A DNA stretch of 64,000 bases from NCBI GenBank assembly GCA_023665865.1, contig JAMPDC010000001.1:1133444-1197443 (forward strand), written 5' to 3'. Shown piece after piece: positions 2,257-42,177 of the stretch; positions within the stretch are counted from its first letter, which is position 1; the number at the start of each line of letters is the position of its first letter. Under the pieces are notes generated by a model. That model was not told the DNA's origin, searched no databases, and saw only the letters and a program-made list of their open reading frames with translations. The stretch comes from Staphylococcus sp. (GTDB lineage Bacteria > Bacteroidota > Bacteroidia > Bacteroidales > Muribaculaceae). Made by a program: the position numbers and the translations under genes.

Positions 2257-3420
2257 ATGAAAAGAAACTTGTTAACAGCAATAGTCCTGGCATTGGCGGC
2301 CATCCTGCTCCCCCTCGGAGCCGTGGCTTCCGACAGTCACGCCGCGACCGGCTCCACCGAGGAGAAAAGCGGCGCGGTCGACGCGCAGGGCATCATTTTC
2401 GAGCACCTCGGCGACCGCTACGGTTGGGAAGTGCCCTTCAATCACCACAAGTCAATTCCGCTCCCGGTGATCGTATGGGGTTCAGACGGCCTCCACGTCT
2501 TCTCATCATCGCGCGTGGCTCACGGCGCAGTCTACCGCGACGGCAACACTGACTTCAAAGTGGCCGGCAGCGACAGTCCCTACAAAGGCAAAGTCGTCGA
2601 GATCATCGACGGCAAGGAGGTCAAGCCCGTCATCGACATCTCGATCACCAAAAATGTCTGCGGCGTCTTCATCGCAGTCCTCCTTGTCATCTGGTCGATC
2701 CTCTCCGTCGCCCGCTGGCACCGCACCCAGGGCATGAAGGGGCCCCGCAAGATGACAGGTGCGATCGAATTTGTGATCCTCTTCATCTACGACGGTGTCA
2801 TCAAACCCACCCTCAAGACCAAGGCCAACAAGTTTGCGCCCTATCTCCTGACCGTCTTCTTCTTCATCCTCGTGATGAACCTCCTCGGTCTGATAGTGGT
2901 CTTCCCCGGCGGCGCAAACCTCACCGGCAACATTGCAGTCACCCTTGTCCTGGCTATAATCACCTTCCTCATCACAAATATCTTTGCGACCAAACACTAC
3001 TGGAAGGAGATCTTCAACCCCGACGTCCCCTGGTGGCTCAAATGGCCCCTGCCTATCATGCCGGTCATTGAAGTGTTCGGTATTTTCACCAAGCCGGCCG
3101 CGCTCACAGTCCGTCTCTTTGCCAACATGATGGGCGGCCACATGATCGTCATCGTGCTCACCCTCCTCATCTTCATCTTCGCAGCCATGGGGCCTGTGGT
3201 GACCGGCGCCACCGCTGTCGTCAGCATCATCTTCTCGGTCTTCATGCTTCTGATCGATGTGCTCGTCAGCTTTATCCAGGCCTACGTATTCACCATGCTC
3301 TCCACTCTCTTCATAGCCCTCGGCCAGGAAGAAGGCCACGGGGAGCATAAGAAAGATGAGGCTCATGAGCCCGAAAAGCTCCCCGCTACCCCCCATCAGA
3401 CAACAACCAACCCCGCATAA
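2257..3420 (+). CDS. atpB: Fo ATP synthase subunit a
   Basis: Membrane subunit a, which forms the two proton half-channels next to the c-ring. The essential arginine lies in TVRLFANMMGGHM near residue 286, and PVIEVFGIFTKPAAL precedes it. The protein (387 residues from the ATG at 2257; a GTG at 2251 is an alternative) is longer than the usual 240-290: it begins with a signal-like segment (ILLPLGAVAS), followed by about 100 polar residues before the first Fo helix, and ends with a His/Glu/Lys-rich tail. Such N-terminally extended subunits a are familiar from Bacteroidota. At least five hydrophobic helices are visible. It is followed 37 bp later by atpE. Confidence 0.95.
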   Translation: MKRNLLTAIVLALAAILLPLGAVASDSHAATGSTEEKSGAVDAQGIIFEHLGDRYGWEVPFNHHKSIPLPVIVWGSDGLHVFSSSRVAHGAVYRDGNTDFKVAGSDSPYKGKVVEIIDGKEVKPVIDISITKNVCGVFIAVLLVIWSILSVARWHRTQGMKGPRKMTGAIEFVILFIYDGVIKPTLKTKANKFAPYLLTVFFFILVMNLLGLIVVFPGGANLTGNIAVTLVLAIITFLITNIFATKHYWKEIFNPDVPWWLKWPLPIMPVIEVFGIFTKPAALTVRLFANMMGGHMIVIVLTLLIFIFAAMGPVVTGATAVVSIIFSVFMLLIDVLVSFIQAYVFTMLSTLFIALGQEEGHGEHKKDEAHEPEKLPATPHQTTTNPA

Positions 3421-3457
3421 CTAAAAAAATTACATAAACCCTTTAATCTCCGCAATT

Positions 3458-3706
3458 ATGTTAGCAATGATTTTAGCAGCTATCGAAGGAACCCTCGGCA
3501 TCGGCGTATGTATCGGTGCAGCAATCGCAGCAATAGGTGCCGGCATCGGCATCGGTAAAATCGGTGGCTCGGCCATGGAAGCTATCGCACGTCAGCCCGA
3601 ATCTACCGGCGACATCCGCAGTAACATGATCGTAATCGCCGCCCTCATCGAAGGTGTGGCCCTCTTTGCTGTCATCGTTTGTATCCTCGCAATGTTTGTG
3701 GGCTAA
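3458..3706 (+). CDS. atpE: Fo ATP synthase subunit c
   Basis: An 82-residue, two-helix subunit of the c-ring. Helix 1 has the glycine-rich AIGAGIGIGKIGG packing motif, the polar loop is ARQPE, and the ion-carrying carboxylate is Glu65 in ALIEGVALF. The residue after Glu65 is Gly, not the Ser/Thr usual in sodium-binding c-rings, and helix 1 lacks an obvious partner Gln, so proton coupling is the more likely reading (inference). Length and topology are normal. Mid-operon, 23 bp before atpF. Confidence 0.96.
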   Translation: MLAMILAAIEGTLGIGVCIGAAIAAIGAGIGIGKIGGSAMEAIARQPESTGDIRSNMIVIAALIEGVALFAVIVCILAMFVG

Positions 3707-3729
3707 TCCAAACTTCAATTTATTGAAAG

Positions 3730-4227
3730 ATGGAACTATTCACGCCTGATTTCGGTCTGGTATTCTGGATGTTCGTGTCATTCGCCATCCTCTTCTTCAT
3801 CCTGTGGAAGTGGGGCTGGCCGGTGATCATGAAGGGAGTGTCTGACCGAGCCGACCTCATCGACAAAGGTGTGGAGTATGCTCAAAATGCCAAACAACAG
3901 CTTGACCATGCCCGCGAAGAGGCGGATAAATACATAGCCGACGCACGTCGCCAGCAGGCCGACATGCTCCGCGAAGCCGACAAGATGAAATCGCAGATCA
4001 TCGAGGAAGCCCGCTCAGCTGCCCAGTCAGAAGCCAAAAAGGTGATGGACGCCGCCAAGGTCTCTATCGAACAGGAACGCAAGCAAGCCGAACAGCAATT
4101 CCGCAACGAAGTCTCATCCTTTGCCCTCGACATCGCCCAGAAGGTCGTCCGCAACCAGATGAAAGACGAAAAAGCTCAGGAAAAGCTTGTCAACTCCCTG
4201 CTCGACGAGATGGAAAAACAGAATTGA
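3730..4227 (+). CDS. atpF: Fo ATP synthase subunit b
   Basis: Peripheral-stalk subunit b, 165 residues. One N-terminal membrane helix (roughly residues 9-27, FWMFVSFAILFFILWKWGW) is followed by a long, highly charged coiled coil rich in Ala, Glu, Lys and Gln, as expected for the stator that ties F1 to Fo through the delta subunit. It is followed by a 127-bp gap containing a GC-rich hairpin before atpH, the largest gap inside the atp block. Confidence 0.94.
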   Translation: MELFTPDFGLVFWMFVSFAILFFILWKWGWPVIMKGVSDRADLIDKGVEYAQNAKQQLDHAREEADKYIADARRQQADMLREADKMKSQIIEEARSAAQSEAKKVMDAAKVSIEQERKQAEQQFRNEVSSFALDIAQKVVRNQMKDEKAQEKLVNSLLDEMEKQN

Positions 4228-4230
4228 CGC

Positions 4231-4270
4231 CGTCGTCCCCGGTTCCCTCCACAGGCACCGGGGGCCGACG
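4231..4270 (+). promoter_or_regulatory. GC-rich hairpin between atpF and atpH
   Basis: CGTCG and CCCCGG at 4231-4242 pair with CCGGGG and CGACG at 4258-4270, with a small internal bulge and a 15-nt loop. No T-run follows, so it is more likely an attenuating or transcript-stabilising element than a strong terminator. It could help set the ratio of Fo to F1 transcripts, but that is inference. Confidence 0.4.
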
Positions 4271-4354
4271 TCGAAACTCAGTGACTCTCTCTCAGTCCGA
4301 CTCTAAATTTTTTCACTAAGATTACTCATCCTCTAAGGCTCTCATCTCCACGCA

Positions 4355-4900
4355 ATGAACCAAGGTCTCATCCCCAGCCGCTACGCCAAGGCCCTCTTCG
4401 GGTTCGCCTCCGAAAAGGCCGACGACGCGCGCATCTATCAGCTGATGCACACGCTCGAGAGCTCATTTGCTTCCGAGCCATCGCTCCAGCAGGCAGTGGC
4501 CAATCCCTTCATCCCCGCTGCCGACAAGGTGAAACTCCTCACCTCGGCCGCCGGCGCGACCACTAAAGATGAAGTCTATGCCCGCTTCCTTCAGCTGCTC
4601 GTCGAGAACAACCGACTTGATGCCGCACGCGAGATCGCTCTCGCCTACATGAAGATTTACCGTAGCGAGCACCACATCTACCTTGTGACCGTCACATCGG
4701 CCGCCCCAATGGGTGTCGCTGAGGAGGATCGTCTCAAATCGCTCATCGAGCGCCATCTCAATGGTGGGACTATGGAATACCATCACCGCGTCGACCCTGA
4801 CCTCATCGGTGGTTTCACCGTCTCAATCAACAACGAGAAGCTCGACGCATCCGTAGCCGATGAGCTCAAAAAATTGCGTCTTAAACTTTTAAGAAACTAA
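4355..4900 (+). CDS. atpH: F1 ATP synthase delta subunit
   Basis: A 181-residue OSCP/delta subunit that links the F1 head to subunit b. The start IPSRYAKALFGFA and the C-terminal segment DPDLIGGFTVSINNEKLDAS, with the closing LKKLR, are the usual family landmarks. Length is normal. It ends 24 bp before atpA. Confidence 0.93.
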   Translation: MNQGLIPSRYAKALFGFASEKADDARIYQLMHTLESSFASEPSLQQAVANPFIPAADKVKLLTSAAGATTKDEVYARFLQLLVENNRLDAAREIALAYMKIYRSEHHIYLVTVTSAAPMGVAEEDRLKSLIERHLNGGTMEYHHRVDPDLIGGFTVSINNEKLDASVADELKKLRLKLLRN

Positions 4901-23394: not shown

Positions 23395-25935
23395 ATGAAA
23401 CCCACCGACAAGCGCACAAATCCATCAGTCATCCGTTTTCCCGTCGCCACTCTCGGCGATGGCAACGTAGATATTTGCCACAACCTGCGTCCTCCCCTCA
23501 GAGGTCGTGGGTTGTGTGCCATACATAGCCCTGTCCCGCTCATAGAATCGCACTATCCCGGCGCCAGGTTGCTCCCTGGAGGGAGCCGCACGTCAGGCGA
23601 CCGCCGTATTCTTTTCATGGAATACCGCGGCAATCTGCTATGTCTCGATGAGGGGAAAGCGACCGCACTCACCCCGGTGGCAGGCAAGCCTGCGGCCATC
23701 CTTGCCACCACGACCGGCTATGTCGTCATGATGGGGGAGGGGGCATCTCCTATGTCGCTCCGCGAGGAGGCTGACGGCACGTGGTCATGGCGCCCGGCAG
23801 TCAGTTTCCAGGCCCCGTTTGCCATTGTGCGCAAGGACGAGGGACTCCTCTCGGCCGAGATCACCGCGCCGACCCTCCACGGCAGCTACAGTTCGCGCTC
23901 AGCCTCGCTGACAGCCGCCGACGCCGCGGCCTATGGCAAACTCATCGTCGATGCCTACTCGCGCATCAGCTCGCGTGCTGCCGCCAGACGGGTGTTTTTC
24001 CAACCGGTCATGGCCCGCTACCGCGTGAGAGGTCAGGATGGCTCCGTGTTGTGGCTCTCGGCGCCTGTGTTGGTATCGCCTCAGACGGGCGAACAGTTGA
24101 CCGGCGCGGATTTCACTCTTTCGGGCAGCGGATTCTCCACCTCGTCGGGCGCCACGCTCTCAGCCCGCACTTTCAGCCTCGGGCTGCGCTCATACGCGCC
24201 GCTCGACAGCGACTGGAGCCGGATGGTCAAATGTGTTGAGGTGCTCGTCAGCCCGCAGCTTCATCCGCTCGACGACAGCCTCACCGCAAACTGCACTTTC
24301 GGCCAGTTTACGACCACTTCCGCGCAGTTACATGTCGCTCTGCCCGGTGTCGATGACCGGCTCGCCTCCACGGGGAGTGGCGGTTCCTCGCTCCGTGCCA
24401 AGATCGAGGCTCTCCTCAGCCATCTTGACACAGCTTTGGAGACAGTTGCGTCTGTCCTTCCCGATCCCGCGACGGACGAGTGGGGGAACCGGCTCAGCTT
24501 CTACGGTCACGCCCCGCGCGACCTCAGCTCCGAGATGCGACGGCTCCGTACGCTTCTGTCGTCAACCGTCACGGCTGCAACACCCGAGGAGGAGGCGCTC
24601 GCAGCCCTGTCGCTCCCTCATGCACTGAATGTGTCACTCACAGGAGTCAGTGGCGACTGTGTTGTGCTCGGCGGACTCAGCGCCACCCGCTTCACCGGCT
24701 GGCTACCCGCGGATTTTGCCGTCGAGGGGACGGGTGCAGGCGTCAGCGACGCCTATCCGCAGGCATGCAAGGTCACATTTGCCGACGGGAGCACATCGGT
24801 CGGCGCCGGGCTGACTCTCGGGTTCATCCCGACCGCCCTCTCGCCGCTTCTCGTCTATCCCGCTGCCGATGCTGTGGGGCTGGAGCTCTATTTCGATAGA
24901 TTTACCCTCAATCTCACTCTCACTCCCGACCCCTCTGGGCGCTATTCCTATTGGCTCGCCGACGATTGCCGGCCCGTGGACTGTAGCTCTCCCCTCCGTC
25001 CGGCCTTTATCCTTCCTGCCGCCTCGCCGAGACCCCGCTGCTTCGACGGGATGCTCGCAGTTGCGACGTTCACATCGCCTCTCCGGCCCGTCTGCGTCAC
25101 CCGTGTGGCCGAAACCGCGCCGGTGGCCATCTGCGCCTCTCCCTCGCAGTCGGGTGGATGGGACACCGGAGCCCCACGCTTCTATCTCTTCGGTGCGGCA
25201 GGCATACAGGCACTCACTGTCAACACTTCCCGCACACGCCTGACGGCCCGTTCGCTCGATTCCAGACCTGTCGTGGATCCTCAGGCTGTCTGTGATCTCG
25301 GTCCTCGCGGTGTCGCGGCCATAGCAGGGTGCGATCTTCTCATATTCAGCGGACAGCGCGTCACCACCATCCATCCGCTCGCAGGGCGTGCACGCCTCGG
25401 TTGGATTCCGGCCCGCAGCGAGCTGACCTGTTTCTACACTGCCGCCCAACCCTGTCCCGAGACCTTCACCGTTGCCGAGGGTGGGGAAGAGCATCAGCTA
25501 CATGTCGACGCCATGGTTTTCAATCTCGACAGCGGCGACCGCTACTCGCGTTCCACCCCGGTGGTGGCGTCGCTTCTCTCCGATGCGTCCGGACTTCACA
25601 TACTCGACGCCGCCGGGCAGCTCTACGACTTCACGCGTGAGCTGACCGACGGCGATGAGGTCGATATCTGTTTCCGCTCCAACGTCGCCGCCACCGACTT
25701 CTCACCCTCCCGCCGTCTCTTCGCCCTGCCACTTGCAGGAAGCATCCGGGAGGGGCACGTCGAAATCCGTGGCGACAACGGTGGCGGCATCCGTGCCTCC
25801 GACATGCTTGCGTCGTGGGTTGTCAGCGGCGACATCGCCCATCTGCCACCATGTCCCGTCTTCACCCCTCACCGCCACAATCTCAGTCTCACCATCCGGG
25901 CCTCGGCCTCCTCAATCCGTCTCTCTCAGCCATGA
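23395..25935 (+). CDS. Large protein of unknown function coupled to a phage terminase
   Basis: An 846-residue protein that I do not recognise with confidence. It has no signal peptide or membrane helix and is rich in Ser, Ala, Leu and short beta-strand-like segments. A helical stretch at about residues 335-405 (SLRAKIEALLSHLDTALETV and following) interrupts the beta-rich parts. The C-terminal half contains repeats of the kind V-A-I-A-G-C-D-L-L-I-F-S-G (about residue 645), reminiscent of propeller-like phage tail or stabilisation proteins, but this is only an impression. Its stop codon overlaps the terminase start (ATGA, 25932-25935), so the two are translationally coupled. Base composition resembles that of its neighbours, suggesting long residence in the genome. 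Confidence 0.6.
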   Translation: MKPTDKRTNPSVIRFPVATLGDGNVDICHNLRPPLRGRGLCAIHSPVPLIESHYPGARLLPGGSRTSGDRRILFMEYRGNLLCLDEGKATALTPVAGKPAAILATTTGYVVMMGEGASPMSLREEADGTWSWRPAVSFQAPFAIVRKDEGLLSAEITAPTLHGSYSSRSASLTAADAAAYGKLIVDAYSRISSRAAARRVFFQPVMARYRVRGQDGSVLWLSAPVLVSPQTGEQLTGADFTLSGSGFSTSSGATLSARTFSLGLRSYAPLDSDWSRMVKCVEVLVSPQLHPLDDSLTANCTFGQFTTTSAQLHVALPGVDDRLASTGSGGSSLRAKIEALLSHLDTALETVASVLPDPATDEWGNRLSFYGHAPRDLSSEMRRLRTLLSSTVTAATPEEEALAALSLPHALNVSLTGVSGDCVVLGGLSATRFTGWLPADFAVEGTGAGVSDAYPQACKVTFADGSTSVGAGLTLGFIPTALSPLLVYPAADAVGLELYFDRFTLNLTLTPDPSGRYSYWLADDCRPVDCSSPLRPAFILPAASPRPRCFDGMLAVATFTSPLRPVCVTRVAETAPVAICASPSQSGGWDTGAPRFYLFGAAGIQALTVNTSRTRLTARSLDSRPVVDPQAVCDLGPRGVAAIAGCDLLIFSGQRVTTIHPLAGRARLGWIPARSELTCFYTAAQPCPETFTVAEGGEEHQLHVDAMVFNLDSGDRYSRSTPVVASLLSDASGLHILDAAGQLYDFTRELTDGDEVDICFRSNVAATDFSPSRRLFALPLAGSIREGHVEIRGDNGGGIRASDMLASWVVSGDIAHLPPCPVFTPHRHNLSLTIRASASSIRLSQP

Positions 25936-27797
25936 AAATAGAAGAAATCCTGCTTGAAAACGCGCGCAGGCACGCCCAGCTTGCCTATGCGCCCGATCCG
26001 ATCGCCGGTGATGCCGCCGATCCGGACCGCTCGGCCTACACTTTCGGGGCCACCACTTTCTATCTCCCCGCAGCCATGCTCGCCGATCCCAAGCTCGCGC
26101 TTGTCGGTAATCTCCGCGACCTCGCAAGGCTGCGCTTCAGATATGACTTCCCCTTCTGGGCGGCTACCTGTGTCACGATCAAAGACAAGATCACGGGGCG
26201 CGACGTCCCCTTCATCCTCAACCGTCCCCAGCGTCGTCTTGTGGCCATGCTCGAGAGCGAGCGCACGCAGGGCCACCCTCTGCGCCTCATCATGCTCAAG
26301 GCACGCCAGTGGGGCGGCTCGACGCTCATCCAGGTCTACTTCGCGTGGATACAGATCATCCATTGCCGAAACTGGAATTCACTCATCTGCGCCCACGTCA
26401 AGGACACAGCCGCAACGATACGCGGCATGTACACCAAACTTCTCGCCCGCTATCCCGAGGAATATTGGGAAGAGGAGACCGCACCGGAGTTCCGCCCCTT
26501 CGAGCGCATGAGCAACACGAGGGTCATCCAGGGGCGAGGCTGCCGTGTCACTGTCTGCTCGAGCGAGAATCAGGAGGCGACCCGTGGTCAGGACTATGCT
26601 CTCGCCCATCTGAGTGAGGTGGCTTTCTGGAAAAACTCCACGCTCCACAATCCCGTCGATCTGCTGCGCTCAGTGGCCTCCGGCATCGCCTCCAAGCCAT
26701 TCTCATTCATAGCGATGGAGAGCACGGCCAACGGTGTCGGCAACTTCTTCCACCGCGAGTGGATGAGAGCCAACAAGCCGGGTGCGAGCGACAAACTGCC
26801 GTTTTTCGTCCCCTGGCATGAGATCGAGATTAACCGGACCGAGGTCTCTGACCCGGAGAGCTTCTGGGAGAGTCTCGACGAATATGAACGCGAACTTTGG
26901 GAAGACCACGGCTGCACTCTGGAAGCCATCAAGTGGTATCACGACAAGCGCCTCGGTTTTCCCGACCACCGCTCGATGATGGCCGAATATCCGACCACCC
27001 CTGCCGAAGCCTTCGCGTCGACCTCGCGCAACGTGTTTGCCACGTGCGACATCGAGGCTCTGCGCAGGGATTGCACCGACGCCGGTGAGAGGGGCGAGAT
27101 GAGCTCATCGGAGCGGGGCGACGTCGATGGCCCGTCGGCCCGCTTCATCCCCTCGCCCGACGGCAAGCTGGAGATCTGGAGCCGCCCGCACAAGGATGGT
27201 GACTATCTGGTCTGTGTCGACATCGGCGGCCGCACCCGTGGAGCCGACTATTCGGTCATCTGTGTCGTCGACCGTCATTCCGCGGGCGGAGGACGTCCGG
27301 AGATTGTAGCGCAGTGGCGCGGCCACATCGACCACGATCTCCTCGCGCAAAAAGCCGGAGCCATAGGCCGCTACTATGGCGACGCGCTGCTCGTCATCGA
27401 GAGCAATTCGTGGGAAAGTTCCTCGGAAGGGCAGGGGCGTTTTATCCTCGACCGCCTCTCGGCCACCTATCCCAATCTCTATTTCCGCCCGTCGGGAGGA
27501 GGCGAGTCCATGATGGCCGGTTTCCATGTCAATGTCCGTACAAAGGCGGCCATCATAGCCAATCTTGTCGCCTATGTGCGCGAGAGGGCCTATGTGGAGC
27601 GCTCGTCGGCCGCTTGCGATGAAATGTTGCAATACGAGGCTCTACCCGACGGGAGCTATGCCGCCGCCCGCGGCTGTCACGACGACATGCTGATGACCCG
27701 TGCCATCGCTCTCTATCTCCACGCCTCCCTGTCGGTGTCGGCCACGGTCGGGTATCACGGCCACCCCTTCCGCTCCCTCCTCGACAACTGCCGTTGA
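25932..27797 (+). CDS. Phage-type terminase large subunit, apparently intact
   Basis: Encodes 621 residues from the ATG at 25932, the one coupled to the previous gene; the frame stays open further upstream only as overlap. The ATPase half has a Walker A-like KARQWGGST (about 123-131), a Walker B-like HLSEVAFW with Glu229, and the coupling-type AMESTANG (about 261). The nuclease half has the three acidic positions of the RuvC-like fold: Asp430 in VCVDIGG, Glu490 in LLVIESN and Asp584/585 in GCHDDML. These are the parts of a motor that packages DNA into a prohead and cuts it. No small terminase, portal, capsid or integrase gene is in the window. The gene ends at a bidirectional terminator facing a histone-H1-like gene. 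Confidence 0.88.
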   Translation: MKIEEILLENARRHAQLAYAPDPIAGDAADPDRSAYTFGATTFYLPAAMLADPKLALVGNLRDLARLRFRYDFPFWAATCVTIKDKITGRDVPFILNRPQRRLVAMLESERTQGHPLRLIMLKARQWGGSTLIQVYFAWIQIIHCRNWNSLICAHVKDTAATIRGMYTKLLARYPEEYWEEETAPEFRPFERMSNTRVIQGRGCRVTVCSSENQEATRGQDYALAHLSEVAFWKNSTLHNPVDLLRSVASGIASKPFSFIAMESTANGVGNFFHREWMRANKPGASDKLPFFVPWHEIEINRTEVSDPESFWESLDEYERELWEDHGCTLEAIKWYHDKRLGFPDHRSMMAEYPTTPAEAFASTSRNVFATCDIEALRRDCTDAGERGEMSSSERGDVDGPSARFIPSPDGKLEIWSRPHKDGDYLVCVDIGGRTRGADYSVICVVDRHSAGGGRPEIVAQWRGHIDHDLLAQKAGAIGRYYGDALLVIESNSWESSSEGQGRFILDRLSATYPNLYFRPSGGGESMMAGFHVNVRTKAAIIANLVAYVRERAYVERSSAACDEMLQYEALPDGSYAAARGCHDDMLMTRAIALYLHASLSVSATVGYHGHPFRSLLDNCR

Positions 27798-41766: not shown

Positions 41767-42177
41767 ATGCGAAAAATCAAAGAAATCATCGTGCATTGCA
41801 CGGCCACACCTGCCGGCAGGGAGGTCTCGGTGGCTGAAATTGACAGCTGGCATCGCGCCAGAGGCTTCCGTATGATAGGCTATCACTATGTGGTAGGTCT
41901 GAGGGGAGAAGTGTCGGCAGGGCGTCCCGCCGGGGAGATCGGGGCTCACTGTCTGGGACACAATGCGGGGAGTATCGGGGTGGTCTATGTCGGAGGGCTG
42001 GCGGCTGACGGGAAGACTCCGGCCGACACACGGACTCCGGAGCAGAAGGCGGCTCTGCGTCGGCTCATCGCTGAGCTGCGCGGGCGCTATCCGGGGGCTA
42101 CTGTCCATTCCCACTATGAGTTTGCGGCCAAGGCTTGTCCTTGTTTCGATGCGGGTCGGGAGTACGGCGATGACTGA
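41767..42177 (+). CDS. N-acetylmuramoyl-L-alanine amidase, phage-lysin type
   Basis: A 136-residue enzyme of the T7-lysozyme/PGRP fold that cuts the amide bond between muramic acid and the stem peptide. Zinc ligands are His10 in IIVHCTATP, a His in VHSHYEF (114 or 116) and Cys124 in KACPCFD; GAHCLGHNAGSIGVVYVGG is the substrate-groove block. There is no signal peptide, so the enzyme would be made in the cytoplasm and need lysis, a holin or a secretion route to reach its substrate, as phage endolysins do. Bacteroidales genomes often carry such stand-alone amidases. Its promoter resembles that of the terminase pair. Confidence 0.9.
   Translation: MRKIKEIIVHCTATPAGREVSVAEIDSWHRARGFRMIGYHYVVGLRGEVSAGRPAGEIGAHCLGHNAGSIGVVYVGGLAADGKTPADTRTPEQKAALRRLIAELRGRYPGATVHSHYEFAAKACPCFDAGREYGDD

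Follow-up and report, generated by a model that had tools for sequence, protein, structure and literature searches.

A pair of adjacent genes in a Muribaculaceae chromosome, one for an 846-amino-acid protein (U846) and one for a phage-type large terminase (TerL), was examined together with its relatives in other Bacteroidales. The pair lies in a stretch of 64 kb (the window), which corresponds to positions 1133444-1197443 of contig C1 (JAMPDC010000001.1) in genome G000, a member of the genus of Duncaniella muris with a size of 2.69 Mb and a completeness of 88.75%; positions without a contig or locus prefix refer to the window. With a probability that we put at roughly 0.74, the pair is part of an ancient, domesticated, podophage-derived system resembling gene transfer agents (GTAs), which comprises eight genes encoding U846, TerL, D9, the capsid protein (MCP), D2, the portal protein, D3, and D10. 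A GTA-like system was among the options offered by the first-pass annotation of the window. It is favored by capsid and portal genes on the same chromosome, a cluster of all eight genes in sister genus g37, the gene trees, the low ratios of nonsynonymous to synonymous substitution rates (dN/dS), and the retention of these genes in the family.

Clustered and dispersed arrangements of the gene set

The gene order in genus g37 is U846-TerL-D9-capsid-D2-portal-D3-D10. All eight genes are located on one strand and form a single cluster of approximately 10.2-10.5 kb, which is flanked by host-type genes and contains no other genes (G620, L363 6232-16468; G165, L361 6137-16644). In the third g37 genome read, G622, the cluster lacks TerL, whose gene was found approximately 4 kb beyond it on the opposite strand. 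The g37 cluster ties the window pair and the capsid-portal genes together as one set.

The same set is split over three loci in the genus of G000. About 5 kb from the pair in G029, a relative, there is a capsid gene with a portal gene behind it. The G029 capsid used as a query retrieved a solitary capsid gene in G000 (C1:831875-833071), which is approximately 324 kb away from the pair and stands between genes read as OmpA-like and FKBP-like. Its product belongs to the family SU10_MCP (PF17236; E 6e-43). D9 is the small open reading frame (ORF) preceding the capsid gene; its C-terminal end is shared with the relatives, as judged by eye for G000. A portal query retrieved an interrupted portal gene (C1:853476-854743) within an operon coding for D2 (194 amino acids), portal, D3 (135 amino acids), and D10 (159 amino acids). 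This operon (C1:852.5-855.4 kb) is approximately 301 kb distant from the pair (C1:1156.8-1161.2 kb) and recurs in Duncaniella. The loci of the system thus span more than 300 kb of one contig in G000 and about 10 kb where they are clustered. The description of the pair as isolated therefore had to be abandoned, since capsid, D2, portal, and D3/D10 are encoded elsewhere on the same chromosome and adjoin the pair in the sister genus. For the same reason, a stand-alone two-gene device or defence module was rejected as the primary reading; no evidence of a defence or satellite role was met, and no test was aimed at either.

Capsid and portal genes adjoin each other, with D2 in between, in seven of the ten family genomes outside the genus. 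The portal proteins of G029 and G002 were assigned to P22_portal (PF16510; E 4e-16 and 2e-16, respectively) and to PHROG 156. Portal ORFs of at least 400 amino acids were present in 33 of 37 family genomes. The portal gene of G008 is interrupted at a site different from that in G000, and nearby host genes are split as well, which suggests an assembly error in G008.

Phage origin of the gene set

TerL was assigned to PHROG 2 (large terminase; E 1.4e-23), while no Pfam family was matched. Its profile resembles that of T4 gp17 (3ezk; E 6.5e-19). The first-pass annotation had noted intact ATPase motifs and nuclease acids, and an alignment of 41 TerL sequences bears this out: Asp430 and Glu490 (in the residue numbering of that annotation) are invariant, Asp584/585 is conserved in at least 90% of the sequences, and the other key residues are invariant or conserved to the same degree. 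TerL thus possesses both the ATPase motifs and the three-acid nuclease of a phage large terminase.

U846 had been described as a protein without a recognised family. This holds insofar as no Pfam family and only a weak PHROG hit (phrog_32516; E 0.0025) were found, but not with regard to phages, where full-length relatives exist. The U846 profile built from Muribaculaceae sequences matched a 974-amino-acid protein of a prophage in G000 (E 1.9e-16), gp26 of Bacteroides phage BS-TP4 (E 2e-14), and a 902-amino-acid protein encoded beside a portal gene in another family (E 1.1e-26). Profile-profile comparison of the U846 alignment with an alignment of four relatives, three from phages or prophages and one from another family, gave a probability of 99.5 and an E value of 8.9e-23 over 776 columns. 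By these similarities, U846 is a full-length relative of the virion-type protein of about 900 amino acids in BS-TP4-like phages, and it is probably a short-tail or head-tail connector protein. Its profile had no significant match to T7 gp12, P22 gp10, or an SU10 tail protein, so that the tail role is one that we infer. No sequence relative of U846 was found in the PDB (best E 0.06).

The profiles of the other host-encoded proteins also matched proteins of BS-TP4 (PQ571277.1), namely portal gp4 (1.4e-145), MCP gp11 (1.6e-107), D3 gp9 (6e-8), and D2 gp13 (4e-6), while those of D9 and D10 had no match in this phage. TerL shares 40% identity with BS-TP4 gp7. The gene for gp9 is located two genes before that for TerL on the same strand, and relatives of D3 directly precede TerL in four related prophages; this position suggests that D3 may be a small terminase. 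Judged from these sequence relationships, the genes of the system derive from one phage lineage of the podophage type. The portal protein is shorter in Muribaculaceae (approximately 430-510 amino acids) than in phages (approximately 630-690 amino acids). The number of carbon atoms per residue, uncorrected for relatedness and host GC content, is also lower in Muribaculaceae than in phage copies of TerL (4.99 vs 5.18), MCP (4.87 vs 4.95), and portal (4.94 vs 5.23).

G000 also harbors, as one contiguous element at C1 ~2.055-2.095 Mb (L021-L022), a prophage from that same lineage. It carries a second TerL (44% identical), a portal, a capsid of prophage type (C1:2076174), and the 974-amino-acid relative of U846, and encodes a protein of at least 4794 amino acids. 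The TerL proteins of phage BS-TP4 (gp7, L078 19779-21875) and its relatives BKO1-TP3 and BF1-TP2 are labelled 'tail spike protein' in public records.

Distribution among the Bacteroidales

The first search included 61 genomes: 27 from the genus (G000 included), 10 from the rest of the family, and 24 from the rest of the order. Matches to TerL, portal, and MCP were detected in 36, 38, and 38 genomes, respectively. Those to TerL were distributed among 26 of 27 genus members, 8 of 10 other members of the family, and 2 of 24 other members of the order, one of them prophage-like (G055); these counts include prophage copies (the only copy in G007) and the fragment in G003. The pair is present in most close relatives, among them the cultured Duncaniella muris DSM 103720 (NZ_PUEC01000017.1, U846 164-2641, TerL 2681-4546).

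The position of the pair is partly conserved. Of the 24 Duncaniella genomes read (the fragment in G003 included), 12 match the window in having TerL on the side of M16/rimP/nusA, while the pair resides elsewhere in the rest. Synteny with nnr and DUF4831, which the first-pass annotation had proposed to examine, was observed in only a part of the genus: these genes precede the pair in G000, G005, G002, and G018, and are also found on that side of it in G008 and G020. An additional gene for a 761-amino-acid protein separates TerL from M16 in G018. A scan of named genomes, limited to the best 80 of 176 TerL loci, revealed U846 directly before TerL (gap of at most 150 bases) in 47 loci, downstream in 4, farther upstream in 3, and none in 26 (8 of which had little upstream sequence). 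G001, G006, G028, and G032 retain U846 at a site separate from that of TerL.

A larger set of 226 Muribaculaceae genomes (G000 and others of at least 90% completeness) was searched at E <= 1e-3. Matches to the MCP profile were obtained in 191 genomes, which represent 25 of 26 genera, and matches to the U846 profile in 196, which represent all 26; some of these matches may be prophage copies. According to hand counts, 175 MCP matches had E <= 1e-90, the 16 weak ones being all from genus g225, and 167 U846 matches had E <= 1e-30, with 22 of the 29 weaker ones in g225. On sequence grounds, such retention of the set in scattered or clustered form across most of the family is what one would expect if a gene-transfer particle had been domesticated.

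In an order-wide sample, MCP was detected in 34 of 392 genomes, which belong to 16 of the 205 genera covered. Six further families with related sets (f22, f28, f58, f65, f84, and f103) are among those represented. Re-examination of 28 of these genomes revealed TerL in 28 and portal in 27. The genes are dispersed in G290, whose genome is a single contig (portal at 1,148,873; MCP at 1,395,210; TerL at 1,427,267), while G055, G306, and G372 are prophage-like, with MCP, TerL, and portal within about 17 kb of one contig and with lower scores. Additional virion-type genes were found in other families (L340, L345, L352), including one before MCP and a U846 relative beside the portal. Judging by position, the protein before MCP would be a scaffold, and a protein encoded near TerL or portal would be internal-virion-like. 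These additional genes suggest that the ancestral set was fuller and that Muribaculaceae may carry a reduced version of it.

Contigs assigned to Desulfovibrio and Paenibacillus metagenome-assembled genomes (L174, L190) carry a Muribaculaceae-type TerL; their public organism labels are thus probably wrong.

Inheritance and selection

The trees constructed with FastTree for TerL, MCP, and portal each contained a single split with every host copy on one side and every phage or prophage copy on the other: 120 vs 21 sequences for TerL (support 0.931), 39 vs 18 for MCP (0.984), and 41 vs 16 for portal (0.931). Since some genomes entered twice, not all of these sequences are distinct; the distinct host and phage sequences number 104 and 20 for TerL, 39 and 17 for MCP, and 40 and 15 for portal. 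The minimal ORF lengths were about 560, 350, and 380 amino acids, respectively. Phage and prophage labels were set beforehand from gene surroundings or scores, and TerL loci from named genomes were labelled as host without reading each neighbourhood.

Pairwise distances correlated with those of the host gene infB (Mantel rho 0.83 for TerL, 0.75 for MCP, 0.67 for portal, 0.64 for U846, and 0.62 for D2) and between TerL and MCP (0.81). None of 1000 permutations gave a value as high in any of the tests, which were performed with 17 genomes, G000 not among them, in which all six genes were readable. The placement of host copies on one side of three trees, the correlation with infB, and the shared neighbourhoods indicate vertical inheritance.

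The first-pass annotation had named relaxed selection on the catalytic residues of the terminase as an outcome that would speak against its proposal. The dN/dS values for TerL were 0.08-0.15, so selection is not relaxed. The ranges for the other genes were 0.03-0.15 (MCP), 0.01-0.15 (portal), 0.03-0.15 (D3), 0.09-0.26 (D2), 0.07-0.28 (D10), and 0.15-0.38 (U846), in comparison to 0.01-0.04 for infB. They were obtained by the Nei-Gojobori method for the eight most similar pairs per gene, as picked by shared 4-mers. By these measures, the genes of the system are vertically inherited and subject to purifying selection. Relaxed selection and frequent gain and loss, as typical of prophages, were not observed, although some losses did occur (G003, G004, G031, and g225).

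Features of the window

The two ORFs and their coupling by an ATGA overlap, reported earlier, were confirmed; the overlap occupies 25932-25935, and the extent of TerL in Table 1 is counted from its ATG. The housekeeping setting was confirmed as well, with DUF4831 on one side and M16/rimP/nusA/infB on the other. No phage module was recognised around the pair, in a reading that did not extend to att sites, nor was an integrase gene noticed next to it. No prophage adjoins the pair within the window; a complete prophage just beyond a misassembled junction was among the outcomes that the first-pass annotation had named against its proposal. No tRNA was found in the window, and promoters and terminators around the pair did not exceed those in shuffled sequence. 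The base composition is host-like only in part: the GC contents at third codon positions (0.71 for U846 and 0.76 for TerL) do not depart from those of four neighbouring genes (0.67-0.77), but the overall GC contents (0.636 and 0.614) are raised relative to the window (0.569).

Table 1. Features of the gene pair and a further phage-type gene in the 64-kb window.
Feature	Position	Strand	Basis
U846, virion-type structural protein, first gene of the pair	23395..25935	+	Profile matches to phage proteins
TerL, packaging ATPase and nuclease, 621 amino acids	25932..27797	+	PHROG 2, T4 gp17-like profile, conserved motifs
KARQWGGST, Walker-A-like motif of TerL	26298..26324	+	Every residue invariant or at least 90% conserved (41 sequences)
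HLSEVAFW, Walker-B-like acidic motif of TerL	26607..26630	+	His and Glu invariant (41 sequences)
TerL nuclease region	27219..27686	+	Asp430 27219-27221, Glu490 27399-27401, Asp584/585 27681-27686
Solitary phage-type N-acetylmuramoyl-L-alanine amidase	41767..42177	+	phrog_822 E 5.7e-54, PF01510 E 4.8e-13

The account of phage-type genes in the window requires one addition, the lysis-type amidase in Table 1; no other was noticed on reading the gene list, in which not every ORF was scanned against PHROGs. The solitary amidase gene is located near xerD and was the only match in G000. It was detected in 25 of the 27 genus genomes (G000 included) and in 37 of the 61 genomes searched, and it is possibly the lysis gene of the same system.

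Proposed function and alternative explanations

By analogy with described GTAs, we infer that the gene set gives rise to particles into which TerL packages host DNA and which deliver this DNA. MCP, helped by D9, would form a small head. Portal, D2, and U846 would form the head-tail vertex, with D2 and U846 closing the filled head. D3, as the small-terminase-like component, and TerL would load chromosomal DNA through the portal and cut it when the head is full. Lysis of the cells, perhaps by means of the amidase, would then release the particles, which would carry pieces of the chromosome into related cells. All roles given here to U846, D2, D3, D9, and D10 are putative, as is the membership of the amidase. 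A more specific scenario, to which we give about even odds, is that a BS-TP4-like podophage was domesticated once before the divergence of the Muribaculaceae and at least six other families and that its gene set, reduced and in many lineages dispersed, has passed vertically from then on and still packages chromosomal DNA and moves it among gut Bacteroidales.

Several observations weigh against a functional GTA-like system. In the assembly of G000, the portal reading frame is interrupted near codon 227 (L145 5447-6897). Intact reading frames for all three of TerL, MCP, and portal were obtained from only 25 of 37 family genomes, in part because the assemblies are fragmentary. G004 and G031, both 99% complete, possess capsid and portal but no match to TerL or U846 (for U846 in G031, as absence from the matched rows), and G003 retains capsid, portal, and U846 with only a fragment of TerL; a lineage-specific inactivation is possible in these three genomes. 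Strong capsid matches were found in only 10 of the 48 genomes of g225, with weak ones in 16, and the system seems, from these matches, largely lost or replaced there. The signature of cheap amino acids is absent from MCP and portal, and slight in TerL, in other families. No internal-virion-like protein was found outside prophages in eight Muribaculaceae searched, and the surroundings of the loci showed no recognisable tail fibre, holin, or regulator, for which no specific search was made.

The same genes might give rise to phage-like particles that package host DNA but kill their targets instead of delivering it, which we consider unlikely. The model for this is PBSX of Bacillus subtilis, a phage-derived defective element that is described as packaging host DNA and as acting like a bacteriocin instead of transferring DNA (PMC7667829, PMC12946183); it was compared with the Bacteroidales genes by description only. 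Sequence cannot separate delivery from killing, and the rate of evolution among the genes tested is highest for U846, which would suit a component that faces the target. However, the conserved nuclease residues of TerL and the purifying selection acting on it imply that DNA packaging matters, and inspection by eye of the genes around the loci revealed none recognisable as serving killing or immunity.

The genes could also have been domesticated for interference with incoming related phages, for example through misfitting TerL, portal, or capsid subunits mixed into their assembly. Prophages of the same lineage do occur in the genus, G000 included, and the shorter portal of Muribaculaceae would agree with such a role. 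Yet a full set of head, vertex, and motor proteins with conserved catalytic residues, assembled in one cluster in the sister genus, exceeds what interference needs, which makes this explanation quite improbable.

A still smaller chance is left for scattered remnants of an ancient prophage in neutral decay. The absent or fragmentary TerL in G004, G031, and G003, the loss of most capsid genes in g225, and the interrupted portal of G000 would all fit such decay, but dN/dS values far below 1 in all seven genes tested, the retained catalytic residues, and the matches in 25 (MCP) and 26 (U846) of 26 genera do not. A decaying prophage is strongly disfavoured by these dN/dS values together with the wide retention in the family and the gene trees.

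That the pair serves a satellite, with TerL and U846 redirecting the capsid of a helper prophage, is hardly credible: the local isolation of the pair in the window and the related prophage in the genome would fit, but G000 has a host-clade capsid gene and an (interrupted) portal gene of its own, the pair is also found in genomes with a single TerL match (G005, G008, G018), no integrase was recognised beside it, and its position is common to part of the genus.

Comparison with known systems

Six features of GTAs are named by Kogay et al. (2022; PMC9662315): proteins of caudoviricete origin that form caudovirion-like particles, encapsidation of mostly random host DNA, full endogenization, often in multiple loci, a genome of their own that cannot be fully packaged into the particle, mostly vertical inheritance and co-diversification with the host, and delivery of the packaged DNA to other cells. 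Three of these are recognisable from sequence in the GTA-like set of Bacteroidales. Caudoviricete-derived proteins, known from genes alone, are indicated by the similarities of MCP, portal, TerL, U846, D2, and D3. Endogenization is evident from the several loci in G000 and G290 and from the g37 cluster between host genes, and vertical inheritance from the Mantel correlations with infB, shared neighbourhoods, and three trees.

The alphaproteobacterial type I GTAs are siphovirus-like and have most of their genes in one cluster. The type I GTAs, with that of Rhodobacter capsulatus among them, resemble the set described here in their caudoviricete origin, vertical inheritance, location in several loci, and a TerL that mostly stands apart from viral homologues on the tree (PMC9662315). 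They differ in that the Bacteroidales genes are BS-TP4-like and that gene transfer by them is only putative.

The nearest published analogue is FpGTA, a podovirus-like GTA of another phylum. It is encoded by the gut commensal Faecalibacterium prausnitzii (Bacillota) in a 10.5-kb operon of ten ORFs, to which one strain adds another operon at a distance of about 125 kb, and includes capsid, portal, TerL, and short-tail-type proteins (PMC12946183). Particles, 8.4-8.9 kb of packaged DNA, and proteomics were reported for FpGTA, whereas the Bacteroidales set is known from its genes and is likened to FpGTA by description.

BS-TP4 shares with the host set relatives of TerL (gp7), MCP (gp11), portal (gp4), U846 (gp26), D2 (gp13), and D3 (gp9). 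Unlike the latter, it is a 64-kb phage with an integrase, replication genes, and very large proteins, none of which were found beside the host set in the loci read; the host set also forms a separate clade.

No described GTA of Bacteroidota was found in the literature, which was screened by title and the start of the abstract in a search that left most subscription journals and bioRxiv outside. The idea is directly testable, since the pair is present in the cultured D. muris DSM 103720. The Muribaculaceae are a dominant group in the mouse gut. If the reading as a GTA-like system is true, the Bacteroidota would gain a further route of DNA transfer, by means of a packaging particle that is widespread in this family and inherited vertically.

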